A stretch of 64,000 nt of DNA from Streptomyces sp. NBC_01283 (lineage in GTDB: Bacteria; Actinomycetota; Actinomycetes; Streptomycetales; Streptomycetaceae), in assembly GCF_041435335.1 (NCBI RefSeq), contig NZ_CP108430.1, forward strand, positions 3,454,501 through 3,518,500. Direction: 5' to 3'. The translations under genes and the position numbers were made by a program. The notes beneath the pieces are model-generated. The model did not search any database and was not told the DNA's origin. It worked only from the letters and a program-made list of their open reading frames with translations. Shown piece by piece: positions 7,875-54,561 of the stretch. The number at the start of each line of letters is the position of its first letter. Position 1 is the stretch's first letter.

Positions 7875-7901
7875 GGGAATGTTTGCTGGGGGCAACTCGT
7901 T
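7875..7901 (+). promoter_or_regulatory. Sigma-R-type promoter of the 50-residue gene
   Basis: GGGAAT at 7875-7880, 17 bases, then CGTT at 7898-7901 matches the Streptomyces SigR (thiol-oxidative stress) consensus GGGAAY-N16/17-CGTT at every fixed position. It lies about 95 bases before the start codon at 7995. The leader between contains an imperfect hairpin near 7917-7939. Confidence 0.65.
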
Positions 7902-7994: not shown

Positions 7995-8147
7995 ATGCGC
8001 TTCGAAATCATGCGACTCGACGACGTCGACGGCGCCGCCGTGGACCGGACCGTCGTAGACGCCGCCTCCGTCAATCGGATCGTGCAGCAGGCCGCAGCGA
8101 TCGGCCAGCGCATCTATATCCGTCCGGCCGAATCCCCGGCCTCATAA
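7995..8147 (+). CDS. Conserved 50-residue protein of unknown function
   Basis: Encodes MRFEIMRLDDVDGAAVDRTV followed by 30 more residues, ending in IRPAESPAS. The ATG at 7995 has AAGGGAG at 7981-7987 upstream. The composition is normal for a soluble protein, with codon use like its neighbours, and I recall near-identical small proteins in other streptomycetes. A sigma-R-type promoter upstream suggests induction by thiol or redox stress. Downstream are a 13-base tandem repeat and a very strong terminator. It is too short to assign a fold or function. Confidence 0.75.
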   Translation: MRFEIMRLDDVDGAAVDRTVVDAASVNRIVQQAAAIGQRIYIRPAESPAS

Positions 8148-19882: not shown

Positions 19883-20362
19883 TCAGGTGGCGTCCGCGTC
19901 GAACGGCGGGTGGTCGACGGGCGCGGCCTTCCCGGGCTTCTTGTCCATGTCCATGCGGCCGTCCTTCTTGGCCATGTCGACGCGGCCGCCCGCGTCGGAC
20001 GCGGTGTCCGTGCCGGTCGCGCCGTCGGAGGATTCACTCTCCCGCCCGTGCACGGCGTCCGTGACCTCGGCCATCTCCTTCTTCAGGTCGAAGCCGTTCC
20101 GGATTTCCTTCAGGCCGAGCTCGTCGTTGTCGAGCTGCTTGCGGATGAAGGTCTTCGGATTCAGGTCCTCGAACTCGAAGTCCTTGAATTCCGGGCCGAG
20201 TTCACTGCGTATATCCGCCTTGGCGCTGTCCGAGAATTCACGGATCTTACGTATGGTCCGCGAGGCGTCCTGAATCAGCTTGGGCAGCTTGTCCGGGCCG
20301 AAAACGAGCACGGCGAGGACGACCAGCGCCACTACCTCAAGCGGGCCAATGTCTGAGAACAC
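19883..20362 (-). CDS. tatB: Sec-independent protein translocase TatB
   Basis: A 159-residue TatB with the single N-terminal membrane helix and hinge, MFSDIGPLEVVALVVLAVLVFGPDKLP, then a long amphipathic helix (RTIRKIREFSDSAKADI) and a disordered, Met/Asp/Lys-rich tail. It forms the twin-arginine translocation receptor with TatC. The GTG start follows AAGGAG. It lies 82 bases after the HtrA gene on the same strand, the order seen in the mycobacterial sigE-rseA-htrA-tatB cluster. tatA and tatC are not in this window. Confidence 0.93.
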   Translation of the reverse strand: MFSDIGPLEVVALVVLAVLVFGPDKLPKLIQDASRTIRKIREFSDSAKADIRSELGPEFKDFEFEDLNPKTFIRKQLDNDELGLKEIRNGFDLKKEMAEVTDAVHGRESESSDGATGTDTASDAGGRVDMAKKDGRMDMDKKPGKAAPVDHPPFDADAT

Positions 20363-20444: not shown

Positions 20445-22676
20445 TCAGTTCCCGCCCGACGCGCCGAGCACGAGGGTCGCTTTCCGGTCCTTTCCAGCTC
20501 GCTGGACCGTCAATTCAAGGCTGTCCTTCGGCCGATGCGCGCGGATCTTGACGATGAGCTCGTCTCCGGAGTGGATGCGCTGGCCGTCCACCGCGGTGAT
20601 GACGTCGCCCGGTTTGATTCCGGCACGGTCGCCGGGGCCTCCCGCGTTCACGGCGGGGCCGCCGCCCTTGCCCTTGTCGCCGACGCGGGCGCCGTCGCCG
20701 GTGTACTCCATGTCGAGCGTGACGCCGATCACAGGGTGCACGGCCTTGCCGTTGTTGATCAGCTCTTCGGCGACGCGCTTGCCCTGGTTGATGGGGATGG
20801 CGAAGCCGAGGCCGATGGAACCCGCCTGGCCGCCGCCGGGTGCCGAGCTGTCGTCGGCGGAGCGTATGGCGCTGTTGATGCCGATCACCCGGGCCTGGGC
20901 GTCGACCAGCGGGCCGCCGGAGTTGCCGGGGTTGATGGGAGCGTCGGTCTGCAGCGCGTCGACGTAACTCACGTCGCTGCCGTCGCCCTTCTCCCCGCCG
21001 GCGGTGATGGGGCGCTCCTTGGCGCTGATGATGCCCGAGGTGACGGTGTTGGCCAGGTCGAAGGGGGCACCGATGGCGACGACGGGGTCGCCCACCTGCA
21101 CGTTCTCGGAGTTGCCGAGGGGCAGTGGCTTGAGCCCGCGTACGCCGGAGACCTTGACCACGGCGAGGTCGTACCCGGCGTCACGGCCTATGACCTCCGC
21201 CTTGGCGGTCTCGCCGCCGCTGAAGGTCACCGATATCTCGCCACCGGTGCCGGCGGGCTCGACCACGTGGTTGTTGGTGAGGATGTGACCCTTGCCGTCC
21301 AGCACGAACCCGGTGCCGGTGCCCTGCGCCTCGTCGCCGCTGACGTGCAGGGTCACGACGCCGGGCAGCGAGCTCGCCGCGATCCCGGCGACGCTGTCCT
21401 TGGCCCGCGCCTTGTCCTGGGACCCGGCCTGCGGCAACTCGATGTCGGAAACACCGGCGTTCCGCTCCAGATACGCCCCCAAGGCCCCACCCAGGCCTCC
21501 GGCCACGAGGGTGATGACGGCGATCCCGACAAGAATGACCCGCCGCGCCCGCTTCCGCTGCTTGTCCTTGTCGACGGGAACGGCACCACTCTGCTGGAGG
21601 GGGGCGTTCCAGGGGTCGTAGGACTGACGGGGAGGGGCGGGTTGGGGTTGGGATTGGGGCTGAGGCTGGTGATGCGGGGCGGCGTGAGGGTGGGGCTGCG
21701 GGCCGCCGCCTTGCGGGGGCGTGGGGTGCGGGGTGCCGTGGGGCGGGGTGGAGCCGTGGGCGGGGGCCGGGCCCGGGGTGCCGTGGGGCGGGGTGCCGCT
21801 GTGGTTCGCCGCCGGGAGCTGTGTGCCGTGGGTCGGGGTGGCCGTCGGGTGCTGTACGGGCGGGGCGGGGGCCCAGGGGCCGGGCTCACCGTAGGGCGGG
21901 GTGCTGTACGGATCGGGGTCGTGCAGCGGGCGGGGGCGGTCGGCGGGGGCTCCAGGAGCCGAGGCGTCGGGGGCGGAGCCGCTCTGGGCGGGAACACCCG
22001 GGCCCGGGGTGCCGGGCGCAGGATTCGCGGCAGCCTGGGTCGAAACGCCCGAAGCCGGGTCACCAGGAGCAGTGCCGGCGTGTGCGACGGGAGTGGTACC
22101 CGCCGGAGCGGGAACACCCGGGGCGGAGGTGCCGGGCGCGGGGGCCGCGTCGGCAGGCGCGACGGGAACGGTACCGGTGGGGACACCCGGGCCGGGGGCA
22201 CCAGACGTATGGGCAGCTACAGCAGCCGCGTCGGCCGGAGCCGAGGCGTCGGCGCCGGGCGCGACAGCGGACGGACCCACGGCATCAGCCCGGGGGCCAA
22301 GCGCGGCAGCGGTCGGAGTCGGCTCGGCCGAAGCCAGCTCAGACGTCACCCCAGCCAAAGTCGACTCAGACCCAGCCCCGGGCGAAGTCCACCCAGGCGA
22401 AGCCGGCTCAGGCCCCGCGCCAGGCGAAGCCACCTCCGGCCCCACCCCGGACGGACCCGGATCAGGCGTAACCCCAGGTGAAGTCGGTTCAGGCCTTGCG
22501 CCCAGCGGAGTCGCTGCTGCCAGGGTGAAGTCGCCGGAGTCGTCCTCTCGGTCGGCGGCGCCCGTGGCCTCGTCCCCGGTGGCGGGTCCGCCCCGCTCCG
22601 CACCCGTGCCGTCAGGCGCGGACGCCGACCTGGGGCGGCTCCACCACTTCGCCTTCGTGGGCTTGCCCTCGTCCAT
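20445..22676 (-). CDS. htrA: HtrA/DegP-like membrane serine protease with PDZ domain
   Basis: A 743-residue envelope protease. Residues 1 to about 370 are cytoplasmic and disordered, a Pro/Gly/Ala-rich stretch with degenerate repeats (PGAGPEPASPG, GTPGPGVPA). One membrane segment follows (VILVGIAVITLVAGGLGGAL). The extracytoplasmic trypsin-like domain has the triad His in TNNHVV, Asp in GYDLAVVKV and Ser in GNSGGPL, and a PDZ domain (RAGIKPGDVITAVDG) ends the protein. The ATG follows GGGGAG. It comes after the sigma/anti-sigma pair and is a likely member of that envelope stress response. Confidence 0.9.
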   Translation of the reverse strand: MDEGKPTKAKWWSRPRSASAPDGTGAERGGPATGDEATGAADREDDSGDFTLAAATPLGARPEPTSPGVTPDPGPSGVGPEVASPGAGPEPASPGWTSPGAGSESTLAGVTSELASAEPTPTAAALGPRADAVGPSAVAPGADASAPADAAAVAAHTSGAPGPGVPTGTVPVAPADAAPAPGTSAPGVPAPAGTTPVAHAGTAPGDPASGVSTQAAANPAPGTPGPGVPAQSGSAPDASAPGAPADRPRPLHDPDPYSTPPYGEPGPWAPAPPVQHPTATPTHGTQLPAANHSGTPPHGTPGPAPAHGSTPPHGTPHPTPPQGGGPQPHPHAAPHHQPQPQSQPQPAPPRQSYDPWNAPLQQSGAVPVDKDKQRKRARRVILVGIAVITLVAGGLGGALGAYLERNAGVSDIELPQAGSQDKARAKDSVAGIAASSLPGVVTLHVSGDEAQGTGTGFVLDGKGHILTNNHVVEPAGTGGEISVTFSGGETAKAEVIGRDAGYDLAVVKVSGVRGLKPLPLGNSENVQVGDPVVAIGAPFDLANTVTSGIISAKERPITAGGEKGDGSDVSYVDALQTDAPINPGNSGGPLVDAQARVIGINSAIRSADDSSAPGGGQAGSIGLGFAIPINQGKRVAEELINNGKAVHPVIGVTLDMEYTGDGARVGDKGKGGGPAVNAGGPGDRAGIKPGDVITAVDGQRIHSGDELIVKIRAHRPKDSLELTVQRAGKDRKATLVLGASGGN

Positions 22677-22802: not shown

Positions 22803-23831
22803 TCAGCGGATCTGCGAAGTGCCCTGCAGGGTGCCCTCTATGGGTGAGGACGCCGCGGTGCTCGAAGCCGCCTCGTCCAGGGTCGGCACCGTACCGGCGG
22901 AAGAGGTGCTGCCCGATACGACGGGAGGCACCGGCCGGATCAGCGGGGACATGATCGCCGCGCCGGTCAGCATCGGCGCCGCGATCTGATGCCGGGCGGA
23001 CACGGACTCGGGCTGGTCGATACGAGGGCCCCGCGCAGGCACACCGGGCAGCAGAGGGCCGGTCGCCTGAGTCGGCGCGACCGGCGCCACGAGGACTCCG
23101 GGACGCTGACCCTGCACCGACAGCGGCCCGCTGCCGCGGCGGCGGACGGAATCGGGAGCCGAGGTGGCAGCCGAGCCCGGCGAACGCAGCGGCGACGCAT
23201 TGCTGTTGCTGCTGCCAGAACTGCTGTTGCTGCTGCCCGAGCCCGCGCGCGAGTCACCCGGGTCGGCAGGGATGCCCGTCGTGACGCCGCCCAGCGCTAT
23301 CGCGGCCAGCGACACCGCGCCCGCGGCGGCGAAGGCGAACCTCCGTCCGCGCCACAGCGACCGCTCGGCCTCGTTCCGGCCCACGTCACGGCGGTCGACG
23401 TCATGGATGCGGAAACCGCGCCCCGAACCCGGCAGCACCGTGGCATGGCTGCCCGAGGGCGCGTAGCCGAAGGTCTCGGGCCGTATGCCGAAGACTCCGC
23501 TCGGCGGCAGCCCTGACTCACTGTCCGCGGTGGCGAAGCCGCCGCCGGGGGATCTGGGGCCGGGCGGAGGCTCGCTGCCACCGCCGGGCAGGCCTTGCAG
23601 CCGGGCGAGGAAACTCTCGGAGGGAGGCGGCGGCGCCGCCTCGGCGAAGACACTCTTGAGCCGCCGCTGCGCGTCGGCCTCGGTCTTGCACTTCGGACAG
23701 GTCGCGAGATGAGCGAGGACCCGCTCACGCGCGTCATGGCCCAACTCACCGTCCACCAGGGCGGCGAGTCGGTCCCCCAGATGCTGCTCGGCCAGATGCC
23801 GCTCGGCAGGATTCGACCGTGATCCACTCAC
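22803..23831 (-). CDS. rseA: Zinc-binding anti-sigma factor (RseA-like)
   Basis: A 342-residue partner of the ECF sigma factor encoded just upstream. The N-terminal ZAS domain has HLATCPKC (His41, Cys45, Cys48: HxxxCxxC) preceded by a His in the conserved helix. A linker rich in Pro/Gly leads to a membrane segment near 168-190 and an external Ser/Asn/Pro-rich tail. GTG 23831 overlaps the sigma stop codon by four bases (GTGA), so translation is coupled. Mycobacterial RseA is shorter; the long outer tail is a Streptomyces feature. It should hold the sigma factor at the membrane until stress. Confidence 0.85.
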
Positions 23832-24595
23832 TCGGTCGCGCCCCCTCCTCCCGGCGCCACGGCTCCTGCGAGCGAGCGGCGCTCGGCGCGGGCTTCGGGC
23901 GACCGGTGCTGAAGGGCCTTGCGCAACTGCGAGCGGCCACGGTGGATACGGCTGCGGACCGTGCCCAGCTTGACGCCCAGGGTCGCGGCGATCTCCTCGT
24001 ACGAGAGACCTTCGATGTCGCAGAGGACCACGGCCGCGCGGAACTCCGGAGCGAGGGTGTCGAGCGCCTGCTGCACGTCCGCGTCGAAGTGCGTGTCGTT
24101 GAAGACCTGCTGCGGCGACGGCTCACGGCTGGGGAGGCGCTCCGCCGCGTCGTCGCCGAGGGCGTCGAAACGGATGCGCTGCTTGCGGCGCACCATGTCC
24201 AGGAACAGGTTCGTGGTGATGCGGTGCAGCCAGCCCTCGAACGTGCCGGGGGTGTAGGTCGACAGGGACCGGAAGACACGGACGAAGACCTCTTGCGTGA
24301 GGTCCTCGGCGTCGTGCTGATTGCCGGTCAGGCGGTATGCCAGGCGATAGACCCGTCCGCTGTGCGTGCTGACGATCTCCTCCCAGGTGGGGGGAGTCCA
24401 CGCCTGCGATTCCGCATCAGCGGCAAAGGTCGCGGTCTGAGCGGAACTGGCGGTGTGGAATCGGTCAGCGGTGTCGGTCACGGATTTCGGCTCACCCGCC
24501 AACCCGAGAAAGCGCCTCAGCGCTCCTCCCCGATCCGCGGACGCAGCCGCACCTCCCCTGTCGGCTCTGGTGGTGTCCAGTGGAGCCCCTACCAT
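23828..24595 (-). CDS. sigE: ECF sigma factor, SigE-like (mycobacterial type)
   Basis: A 255-residue sigma-70 family factor with regions 2 (about 73-140, [15 protein letters not shown]) and 4 (about 175-228, [26 protein letters not shown]) and an N-terminal extension of about 70 residues. ATG 24595 is chosen because GAGG lies five bases upstream; ATG 24703 is in frame and could give a longer form. Gene order (divergent methyltransferase, anti-sigma, HtrA, TatB) is that of M. tuberculosis sigE; it is not the well-known Streptomyces SigE beside CseABC. A sigma-R-type promoter lies upstream. Confidence 0.88.
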
Positions 24596-24735
24596 AGCCA
24601 CCTCGCCCGTTAGCTCCGGATAAGCGTTTTTACTGGAATTTGGTACGGGCTTCCTGCCAGGTGTCCTGCCTGGTCGAAGGGCCCGCCGCCAGTCTTGATC
24701 CATTCGTTACCCCCGGCGTCCGCCTACCCCTACTA

Positions 24736-24762
24736 AACGCCCGGTCCCATCTGCGGGTTCCC
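24736..24762 (-). promoter_or_regulatory. Sigma-R-type promoter of the ECF sigma gene
   Basis: On the minus strand GGGAAC (24762-24757), 17 bases and CGTT (24739-24736) match GGGAAY-N16/17-CGTT at every fixed position. Transcription would start near 24730, giving a leader of about 135 bases to ATG 24595 and also covering the alternative start at 24703. Confidence 0.65.
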
Positions 24763-24814
24763 ACCCCCAACGGATACAGTCACGGCCAGGCATCCACGGG
24801 GACAGGAGAGGGCC

Positions 24815-25447
24815 ATTACCGGCAACCGGCAGACGAGCTGGGCGTTCGCCGACGCCTTTGTCGCCGAGGACGAGGCCACACGCTGGGCCCGTGACCGGGC
24901 CCAGGACGCGGGCCTGCCCTCGGTGTCTCCCGGTACCGGCGCCGCGCTGCGCATACTGGCCGCCACCGCGGACGCCAAGGCCGTCGCCGAGATCGGCACG
25001 GGCACGGGCGTGTCCGGGCTCCACCTGCTGCACGGGATGCGGCCCGACGGCGTCCTGACCACCGTCGACCCCGAGCCCGACCGCCAGCAGTTCGCCCGGG
25101 AGGCCTTCCGCGCCGCCGGGTTCGCGGGCAATCGCGCGCGGTTCATCCCCGGCCGCGCACTCGACGTACTGCCGCGCCTCGCGGACGGCGGCTACGACCT
25201 CGTGTTCTGTGACGGCGACCGCACGGAGTACCTGGACTACCTCGCTGAATCGTTGCGCCTGCTGCGGCCCGGCGGGCTCGTCTGCTTCGAGGGCGCCTTC
25301 TCCGACGGCCGCACGGTGGACTCCGGTCCGCAGCCCGCCGAGGTGCTGCGCATCCGCGAGCTCCTGCGCACCGTGCGCGAGAGCCAGGACCTGATGCCGG
25401 CGCTGCTCCCGGTGGGCGACGGCCTGCTCTGCGCCGTCAAGCGCTGA
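24815..25447 (+). CDS. SAM-dependent O-methyltransferase, probable ATT start
   Basis: A 210-residue class I methyltransferase of the small-molecule O-methyltransferase (Methyltransf_3) type. The SAM motif AEIGTGTGVSG is at about 58-68, TVDPEPDRQ follows, then DLVFCDGDR and LLRPGGLVCFE. Homology runs upstream of the first ordinary start (GTG 24923) through TSWAFADAFVAEDEA. The only start with a proper ribosome site is ATT 24815, 6 bases after AGGAG (24804-24808). Its position divergent to the sigE-like gene matches the mycobacterial methyltransferase beside sigE. Substrate unknown. Confidence 0.8.
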   Translation: MTGNRQTSWAFADAFVAEDEATRWARDRAQDAGLPSVSPGTGAALRILAATADAKAVAEIGTGTGVSGLHLLHGMRPDGVLTTVDPEPDRQQFAREAFRAAGFAGNRARFIPGRALDVLPRLADGGYDLVFCDGDRTEYLDYLAESLRLLRPGGLVCFEGAFSDGRTVDSGPQPAEVLRIRELLRTVRESQDLMPALLPVGDGLLCAVKR

Positions 25448-25487
25448 CCCCGGCGCGCTGCCCGGGCACCCCCAACCCCGCGAATAG

Positions 25488-25524
25488 CACTGCCCCGGCA
25501 CGTTTGTACGATGCCGGGGCAGTG
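25488..25524. terminator. Bidirectional terminator
   Basis: CACTGCCCCGGCA at 25488-25500 and its complement at 25512-25524 form a perfect 13-base-pair stem between the convergent methyltransferase and DUF3117 genes. Confidence 0.85.
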
Positions 25525-52926: not shown

Positions 52927-54561
52927 TCAGCTGACCTTGATCTCGTTGTAGACCGGGACGCTGAACTGGTTCAGTGCCACGTCGGAGACCTTGTCCGAGT
53001 AGCCGGCGCTGCCGTTCTGGTACCAGAGCGGAATGACCGCCATCTGATCGGCGAGCACCTTTTCGGCGTCCTGGAACGTGGAGACGGCCTTTCCGGTGTC
53101 GGTCTCCGCGTTGGCCTTGTCGACGAGCTTGTCGAATTCCTTGTTCGACCACTTGCCGTCGTTGGACGGTGCGTCCGTGTAGTACAGCGGCTGCAGGAAG
53201 TTCTGGATCAGCGGGTAGTCCATCTGCCAGCCCGCGCGCCAGGCGCCGTCCAGCTTCTGCTGGGAGGCCTTGCTGCGGAAGTCGGCGAAGGTGCCGACCG
53301 GGCTTCCGACGCAGGACTTGTCGTTTCCGAGAGCCTTGTTGATGGAGTTGCAGACGGCGTCGACCCATTCCTTGTGCGAGCCGGTGTCCGCGTTGTACGT
53401 GATCTTCAGCGTGCCGCCGGGAATTCCGCCGCCGTCGGCGATCAGCTTCTTCGCCTTGTCCGCGTCGTACTTGCAGGGGTCGCCGCAGAGCCCGGACTTG
53501 TAGCCGCCGGCCTCGCCGAGGACCGGAGACGTCCAGTCGGTGGCCGGGGTGCGGGTCTTCTGGAAGATCGTCTCGGTGATCTGGTCGCGGTTGATCGCCA
53601 TGGAAAGGCCCTGGCGGACCTTCTCCATTCCCGCCTTCGACCACTTGCTGTCGTAGAAGGGGAAGGCAAGGGTCTGGATGATGCCCGCCGGGGTGTTGAT
53701 GTAGCGGTCACCCAGGTCACTCTTGGCGTTCTTGAGCTGCGACGCCGGAACGTCGTCGACGAGGTCGAGGTTCCCCGCCATCAGGTCCGTATAGGCGGTG
53801 TTGTTGTCGGTGTAGACCTTGAGGTCCACACCGCCGTTCTTCGCCTTGTCCTCGCCGCTGTAGTCGTCCCACTTCCGCAGGGACATCTTGGAGCCCTTGT
53901 CGTACGAGTCCACGGTGTACGGGCCGTTTCCGACCGGCTTGGCGAGCCAGGCGTCGTGGTCGTCGTAGAACGTCTTGGGCAGCGGCGCGAAGGCCGGATA
54001 GCCGAGGGTCTTGGGCCAGGTGGAGAACTTCTGCGTGAGCTTGACGGTGAAGGTCTTGTCGTCGACGACCTTCAGTCCGGAGAGCTTGTCGGCGCTCGCG
54101 TCACCCTTCTCCGGGTGGACCTTGTCGTAGCCCTCGATGTAACCGAAGAAGTAGGCGTTCTTCTGGTTGTTCTTCAAGTGCGCGCCGTAATTCCAGGCAT
54201 CGACGAAGGACTTCGCGGTGACCTTCTCGCCGTTGCTGAACTTCCAGCCGTCCTTGAGCTTTACGATGAAGTTCTGCGAGTCCTTGGTGTCGATCTTGTC
54301 GGCGACCATGTTCTTGGCCTCGCCGGACTTCGGGTCGTACCGCACGAGCCCCCGGAAGATCATGTCGAGCACCTTGCCGCCCTGCACCTCATTGGTATTG
54401 GCGGGCTCCAGCGGGTTCTGCGGATCGCCCCAGGAGGACCCCACGATCCCGGAGCCGTCGCCGCCACCGCCGCCGCTGTCCCCGCCTCCGCCGCAGGCGG
54501 TCGCCGCGAGAGCGACGGTCACCGCACATGCGGCCCACTTGGCGTGCGTGGCTCCACGCAT
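52927..54561 (-). CDS. Peptide-binding lipoprotein of ABC transporter, operon 1
   Basis: A 544-residue family 5 extracellular solute-binding lipoprotein (OppA/DppA type). The signal peptide ends in the lipobox with Cys23 (ALAATAC), followed by a Gly/Ser/Asp linker and the SBP_bac_5 domain (VQGGKVLDMIFRGLVRYDPKSGEAKN, FTVKLTQKFSTWPKTLGYPAFAPLP). ATG 54561 is chosen because GAGGAGG lies just upstream; a start 24 bases earlier would include the ribosome site. It captures oligopeptides outside the cell for the permease encoded downstream. Confidence 0.92.
   Translation of the reverse strand: MRGATHAKWAACAVTVALAATACGGGGDSGGGGGDGSGIVGSSWGDPQNPLEPANTNEVQGGKVLDMIFRGLVRYDPKSGEAKNMVADKIDTKDSQNFIVKLKDGWKFSNGEKVTAKSFVDAWNYGAHLKNNQKNAYFFGYIEGYDKVHPEKGDASADKLSGLKVVDDKTFTVKLTQKFSTWPKTLGYPAFAPLPKTFYDDHDAWLAKPVGNGPYTVDSYDKGSKMSLRKWDDYSGEDKAKNGGVDLKVYTDNNTAYTDLMAGNLDLVDDVPASQLKNAKSDLGDRYINTPAGIIQTLAFPFYDSKWSKAGMEKVRQGLSMAINRDQITETIFQKTRTPATDWTSPVLGEAGGYKSGLCGDPCKYDADKAKKLIADGGGIPGGTLKITYNADTGSHKEWVDAVCNSINKALGNDKSCVGSPVGTFADFRSKASQQKLDGAWRAGWQMDYPLIQNFLQPLYYTDAPSNDGKWSNKEFDKLVDKANAETDTGKAVSTFQDAEKVLADQMAVIPLWYQNGSAGYSDKVSDVALNQFSVPVYNEIKVS

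Follow-up and report, generated by a model that had tools for sequence, protein, structure and literature searches.

A conserved SigE-type promoter sequence upstream of a Streptomyces sigE-like cluster and its predicted self-activation

The cluster headed by a SigE-type ECF sigma factor gene in the window (the whole 64,000-nucleotide stretch of Streptomyces sp. NBC_01283 that was analysed) raises the question of which sigma factor reads the promoter sequence in front of it. A preliminary description had taken the string GGGAAC-N17-CGTT, on the minus strand upstream of the cluster, as an exact match to the SigR consensus, and had proposed that thiol stress switches on the sigE-like, anti-sigma and htrA genes through SigR, in a regulatory link shared with mycobacterial SigH and conserved across actinobacteria. 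The letters are indeed present, the minus strand at 24736–24762 reading GGGAACCCGCAGATGGGACCGGGCGTT, and a conserved ECF-type promoter sequence does precede the sigma, anti-sigma, htrA and tatB genes (Table 1). The exact match to SigR is wrong, as the site has C at base 5 of the -35 element and the SigR consensus has T.

The sigma protein scores 365.5 bits against the SigE equivalog NF007229, above the curated cut-off of 265. The product of the next gene is recognized by Pfam zf-HC2 (31.1 bits, cut-off 22.2), and its translation contains, by eye, an H-x3-C-x2-C motif (HLATCPKC) and one hydrophobic stretch; since it remains below the cut-off of the RseA equivalog NF041468 (31.1 bits vs 165), it is named RseA-like only. 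The HtrA-type protein is composed of a long Pro/Ala-rich N-terminal part followed by trypsin-like and PDZ domains, with 248.1 bits against TIGR02037, below the cut-off of 416.2. The gene order is presumably that of SCO5146-SCO5150 of S. coelicolor. This correspondence is supported by what PMC10433416 describes for SCO5146 and SCO5147. The region 23800-25500 gave no Rfam match above the gathering score. An N-terminally extended isoform starting from ATG 24703, as for SigR', was considered and rejected, because the leader between promoter and ATG, 77–206 nt long in 79 named Streptomyces loci, is not kept modulo 3 (remainders 31/29/19); the frame of 291 residues that begins at 24703 therefore probably extends too far.

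Table 1. Features of the sigE cluster, its divergent neighbour and the intergenic region.
Feature	Coordinates	Strand	Basis or remark
TatB	19883..20362	-	NF002374, 250.6 bits, cut-off 162
HtrA-type serine protease	20445..22676	-	PF13365 and PF13180
Zinc-finger anti-sigma factor (RseA-like)	22803..23831	-	overlaps the end of the sigma gene
SigE-type ECF sigma factor, 255 aa	23828..24595	-	ATG 24595 after GAGGTGG
Conserved block over the sigE start codon	~24541..24640 (approximate limits)	-	alignment
SigE-type promoter sequence GGGAACC-N16-CGTT	24736..24762	-	sequence and conservation
TACAGT, predicted -10 of the O-methyltransferase	24775..24780	+	alignment; putative function
Divergent O-methyltransferase	24815..25447	+	PF01596, 92.3 bits; probably starts at ATT 24815

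The -35 hexamer of the site, GGAACC, corresponds to 24761-24756 of the minus strand, with C both at base 5 (24757) and at base 6 (24756), and the -10 CGTT to 24739-24736; transcription is predicted to start at about 24729-24726. Three consensuses come into consideration: that of SigR, given as GGAAT-N18-GTT (Paget et al., quoted in PMC2375139) and also as GGAAT-N18-19-GTT (PMC9205884); that of SigH, GGAAYR-N17-18-GTT (PMC4803200), with the older form GGGAACA-N16-CGTT (PMC2375139); and that of mycobacterial SigE, GGGAACY-N16-17-CGTT (PMC8022548, quoting Song 2008). Among them only the SigE consensus, which is mycobacterial, is matched exactly and base for base. The spacing to GTT (GGAAC-N18-GTT) is that of SigR, whereas base 5 is C instead of T, and base 6 is C instead of the purine of SigH. 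In the window scan the SigR pattern GGAAT-N18,19-GTT was absent at the site, and its single match lies at 7876-7901. This match belongs to a SigR-type sequence, GGGAATG-N16-CGTT at 7875-7901 (+), located upstream of a 50-codon open reading frame (7995-8147, plus strand); 0.76 chance matches of the pattern are expected in the window.

The SigE pattern GGGAACY-N16-17-CGTT occurs twice in the window against 0.11 expected, a number reached in 0/100 shuffles, the second match being at 53749 inside a high-GC3 open frame. The looser GGGAAY-N16-19-GTT gives four matches against 1.36 expected, and four were reached in 5/100 shuffles; the looser motif by itself is weak evidence for a real site, so that the reality of the site is decided by conservation. 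On a larger scale, GGGAACY-N16-17-CGTT occurs 168 times in five same-genus genomes (24 for the reversed pattern), and GGGAAY-N17-CGTT 35 times in the 9.6-Mb genome of the strain itself (6 for the reversed pattern).

The site is present in 24/24 same-genus loci (L001-L024) and in 80/80 named Streptomyces sigE loci, two sets that may share genomes; the alignment of the same region in other streptomycetes, which the preliminary description had indicated as a check, thus finds the motif kept. Of the named loci, 79/80 have a pyrimidine at base 6 of the -35 element (C in 78, T in one), the only purine being the A of S. albidus (L451). Mean column identity is 0.972 over the 27-bp site, compared with 0.734 for the 45 nt that lie upstream of it and 0.533 for the 40 nt that follow downstream, as calculated on 79 of the 80 named rows (L475, which has the site, was left out). 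At the level of sequence and conservation, the promoter is real.

Promoter classes inside the genus were compared in 25 same-genus genomes, for genes with a GGGAAY-N17-CGTT site in the strain's own genome and for sigR, which was added by family search; gene names were likewise assigned by family searches. The sigR promoter is GGGAATG in 25/25 genomes, that of trxB is GGGAATG in 24 and GGGAATT in one, and that of rbpA is GGGAATC in 25/25. These SigR-gene promoters share with the site the GGAA..GTT layout and a similar spacing, and differ from it in having T at base 5 in 75/75 cases. In contrast, htpX carries GGGAAC followed by a pyrimidine in 24/24 usable loci (T 15, C 9, no purine; the remaining locus, L118, was cut at a contig end), and ftsH carries GGGAACC in 23 of the 24 loci obtained from the 25 genomes and GGGAACG in one. 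In the strain's own genome, T5 is also found at genes for a mycoredoxin, a DSBA-family protein, a PAC2-family protein and a primary-like sigma factor, the last of which is read as hrdD. At the gene level, the three genes with C and a pyrimidine are separated from the seven T5 genes with a Fisher p of 0.008, a descriptive value, since the grouping had been noticed beforehand and four of the seven T5 genes rest on one genome. In these sets the classes are separated by base 5 and not by base 6 taken by itself, as rbpA is a T5 promoter with C6. The htpX gene tree requires five C/T changes at base 6, which was never a purine, which suggests selection for a pyrimidine. Judged by these letters, sigE most likely shares its promoter class with htpX and ftsH.

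A murA-like gene with GGGAACT in the strain's own genome served as negative control: its site was found in 1/22 usable loci (of 25 loci, L160, L162 and L163 had no usable upstream region) and was for this reason taken as chance. For FxsA, which we take to adjoin rbpA, a SigE-type site was sought on both strands of the 25 rbpA loci and was found only in L190. The single ftsH site with no base-6 pyrimidine (L135) belongs to G008, the one same-genus genome in which no sigE match was found and whose assembly consists of ~740 contigs. Two further genes, one of the TerD family (L273-L276, with N17) and one for a response regulator (L066, L281-L283), are preceded by GGGAACC in each of the four same-genus genomes with full site lists, which do not include G015; TAGGAT in the spacer at the TerD-family gene could be a housekeeping -10. 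Both genes are possible further SigE targets, to be considered as leads only.

The promoter class is also that of reported SigE targets in M. tuberculosis, and the locus resembles the sigE locus of that species in its SigE-equivalog protein and in its anti-sigma, htrA, tatB and O-methyltransferase neighbours, a neighbourhood that is presumably syntenic with Rv1220c-Rv1224. The 14 residues of the region 4.2 helix of SigE are identical in the five Streptomyces and seven mycobacteria-like rows compared, and differ from the SigR recognition helix, TPIGTVMSRLHRGR in the four SigR rows compared. As the helix is common to both groups, the transfer of the mycobacterial SigE preference to Streptomyces SigE is plausible. 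Since the letters of the site fit the gene's own product rather than SigR, the envelope-stress switch is likely self-activating, and the site is probably not a SigR promoter but the one from which the SigE-type factor activates its own gene. In the proposed mechanism, the zinc-finger anti-sigma factor would lose its hold on SigE under envelope or secretion stress. RNA polymerase carrying the freed SigE would then recognise GGGAACC-N16-CGTT upstream of the operon to which sigE itself belongs (sigE, the anti-sigma gene and probably htrA and tatB) and so amplify the response; htpX and ftsH, whose promoters are of the same class, would likely be activated by SigE as well. In this model the point at which transcription starts, its dependence on SigE, the reach of the operon and the nature of the signal are all predicted. 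A SigE-type motif conserved at its own gene, htpX and ftsH would define a short, testable regulon.

Beyond the genus, GGAAYN-N16-18-GTT was found upstream of sigE in 140/150 distinct loci from 27 families, and in 0/152 loci of the reversed-sequence control, counted before the removal of L031 and L038, which repeat genomes G000 and G013. This sample is part of the 206 genomes with a match; outside the genus, loci were chosen by hand so that they cover a range of families, with about one to thirteen from each, and 20 of the 152 loci, with no start anchor, were placed by match position. When the first site in each upstream region is taken, bases 5-6 are CC in 52 and CT in one of the 53 loci of the strain's own family, CT in 13/13 loci of f80, CC in 8/8 of f82 and CG in 8/8 of f81 and 3/3 of f78. 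Mixed bases are seen in f3 (CT 9, CC 3, CA 1), f10 (CA 4, CC 2) and f88 (CC 3, CT 1, CG 1), and six of seven f8 upstream regions have no site, the other having CG. If the site nearest the gene is taken instead, the own family falls to 50/53 pyrimidines, owing to an additional GGAACG site in the leader of three genomes. In f6, read from its proteins as the mycobacteria-like family, bases 5-6 are TA in 8 and CA in 3 of 11 loci, different from the CC found here. Bases 5-6 are thus family-specific, of SigE type in Streptomyces and two other well-sampled families and of SigH type in f6. In sigR promoters of other families (site nearest the gene; 28 of 29 loci used, L403 being left out and L407 lying below the family cut-off), T5 occurs in 19 and CA in 7 of the 26 found, C5 with a pyrimidine in 0/26, and the reversed control matched in 2/28. 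Taken together, these bases indicate that the sigE promoters of f6 resemble the SigH type, and that the sigE promoters of Streptomyces are unlike those of sigR.

These data divide the proposal of an actinobacterial link from SigH or SigR to sigE into two parts. The ECF-type site is kept upstream of sigE across families, and in M. tuberculosis sigE is controlled by SigH, which binds to its upstream region (PMC4803200); the assignment to SigR is not supported, and the SigH-type bases of f6 are lacking in Streptomyces, so that at the level of single bases the thiol-stress link of mycobacteria is not kept here. A flip of base 6, together with base 5, may have given the same operon different masters, SigE itself in Streptomyces and the two well-sampled families and the thiol-stress sigma factor in mycobacteria-like and related ones, with Streptomyces SigE heading a membrane-proteostasis regulon with HtpX and FtsH. 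This view is held tentatively, with slightly more doubt than confidence, and is weakened because SigE is also reported to act on mycobacterial sigE (PMC4921905, PMC10100808). The family-specific base 6 would make the control of sister ECF factors a question reducible to point mutations.

The mycobacterial literature also defines how far the letters can discriminate. At base 6 a purine is favoured by mycobacterial SigH and a pyrimidine by SigE, with some promoters read by both factors (PMC4803200); either SigE or SigH is said to recognise the upstream sigE promoter of M. tuberculosis (PMC4921905), htpX and sigE itself are listed as direct SigE targets in this species (PMC10100808; for htpX also PMC8022548), and overlapping SigH and SigE regulons in Corynebacterium glutamicum are the subject of PMC10012870. 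As M. tuberculosis sigE is a SigE target too, a promoter with a purine at base 6 may still be read by SigE, and, as its promoter is recognisable by either factor, one with a pyrimidine may still be read by SigR; the base-6 rule, which comes from mycobacteria, may not separate promoters alike in Streptomyces. These overlaps are the ground for a dual promoter, in which SigR would give a thiol-stress kick-start and SigE would sustain the loop, both using the site; this is nevertheless unlikely, because the site and the Streptomyces SigR-gene promoters differ at base 5 with no exception in the sets examined. Given the overlap between both sigma classes in M. tuberculosis, SigR may add a weak input and be at most a helper.

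Control by SigR, with thiol stress switching on the gene as proposed in the preliminary description, is the weaker reading in comparison to SigE self-activation and is quite improbable. The GGAA..GTT layout with N18 fits apart from base 5, control of sigE by SigH in M. tuberculosis offers a precedent, and the looser GGGAA-N18,20-CGTT of S. coelicolor includes 12 of 58 sites at diamide-responsive genes (PMC2375139); furthermore, deletion of SLIV_12645 in S. lividans alters the response to diamide (PMC6295645). Against it stand C5 and the pyrimidine of the site, and the network in PMC9205884, which combines earlier data with in vitro transcription and names hrdB and hrdD, not the SCO5147-type gene, among sigma genes under SigR, although this assay misses known targets. 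It is very improbable that the site is conserved as a regulator site or as part of the divergent methyltransferase promoter, with incidental ECF-like boxes, since in other families the -35 and -10 boxes remain at promoter distance from each other although the spacer sequence changes, and htpX carries the same boxes with a variable spacer, even if the spacer and the stretch toward the methyltransferase are also conserved in the alignment, TACAGT on the plus strand lying close to the sigE -35 with the conserved GTGACTGTATCCG on the opposite strand, and a CutR ChIP peak lies at SCO5146/5147 (PMC10433416). Overlap with the divergent promoter or with the reported CutR site may account for this spacer and flank conservation.

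The predicted self-activated SigE promoter can be placed beside what is published on SCO5147 of S. coelicolor and SLIV_12645 (SigR1) of S. lividans, which are taken as orthologs by synteny and description: both are described as relatives of M. tuberculosis SigE, with the divergent methyltransferase SCO5146 (PMC6295645, PMC10433416). Vancomycin induces SCO5147 5- to 7-fold, and its disruption does not raise susceptibility to bacitracin or vancomycin (PMC3123327). The gene is in the HrdB ChIP regulon (PMC6344877) and is bound and activated ~2-fold by CutR (PMC10433416), which indicates that other inputs exist. SCO5147/SigR1 influences growth, the secretome and the production of antibiotics (PMC6295645), and the same source, reviewing the S. 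lividans homologue, interprets Kim 2012 as assigning SCO5147, along with SigR, to the transcription of redox genes. On diamide this source is in conflict with itself, the abstract reporting a more sensitive SigR1 mutant and its Table 1 smaller zones (~19 vs 33 mm). The literature passages on the gene state no promoter class, self-activation or regulon for SCO5147.

The block over the sigE start codon includes an AT-rich stretch, GCTTATCCGGAGCTAACGG, the ribosome site, the ATG and the first codons, ~100 nt that are nearly invariant. Conservation at third codon positions of sigE is 0.987 in codons 1-8, 0.945 in codons 9-16 and 0.847 in the core, and the block contains rare AGA, AGG and GGA codons with the AT-rich stretch upstream; the methyltransferase start is comparably conserved (0.993 in codons 1-8). 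An AT-rich WhiB7-type site is known at sigEp1 of M. tuberculosis (PMC4921905), in light of which a second promoter, or else an RNA element, may lie within the block.

The O-methyltransferase appears to start with ATT after GGAGAGG (24805-24817, plus strand) in 69/69 strictly parsed named Streptomyces loci, and ATT is also found in 11/11 loosely parsed ones; the preceding codon varies in the 69 loci (GTC 41, GCC 26, CCC 1, GAC 1). IF3-sensitive noncanonical starts have been reported for sigR (GTC) and infC (PMC5472188), and this ATT is a candidate for the same type of start. By eye, ATC or ATT follows a GGAGG-type site in three f82 loci and in two of four f80 loci, the other two f80 loci having ATG.
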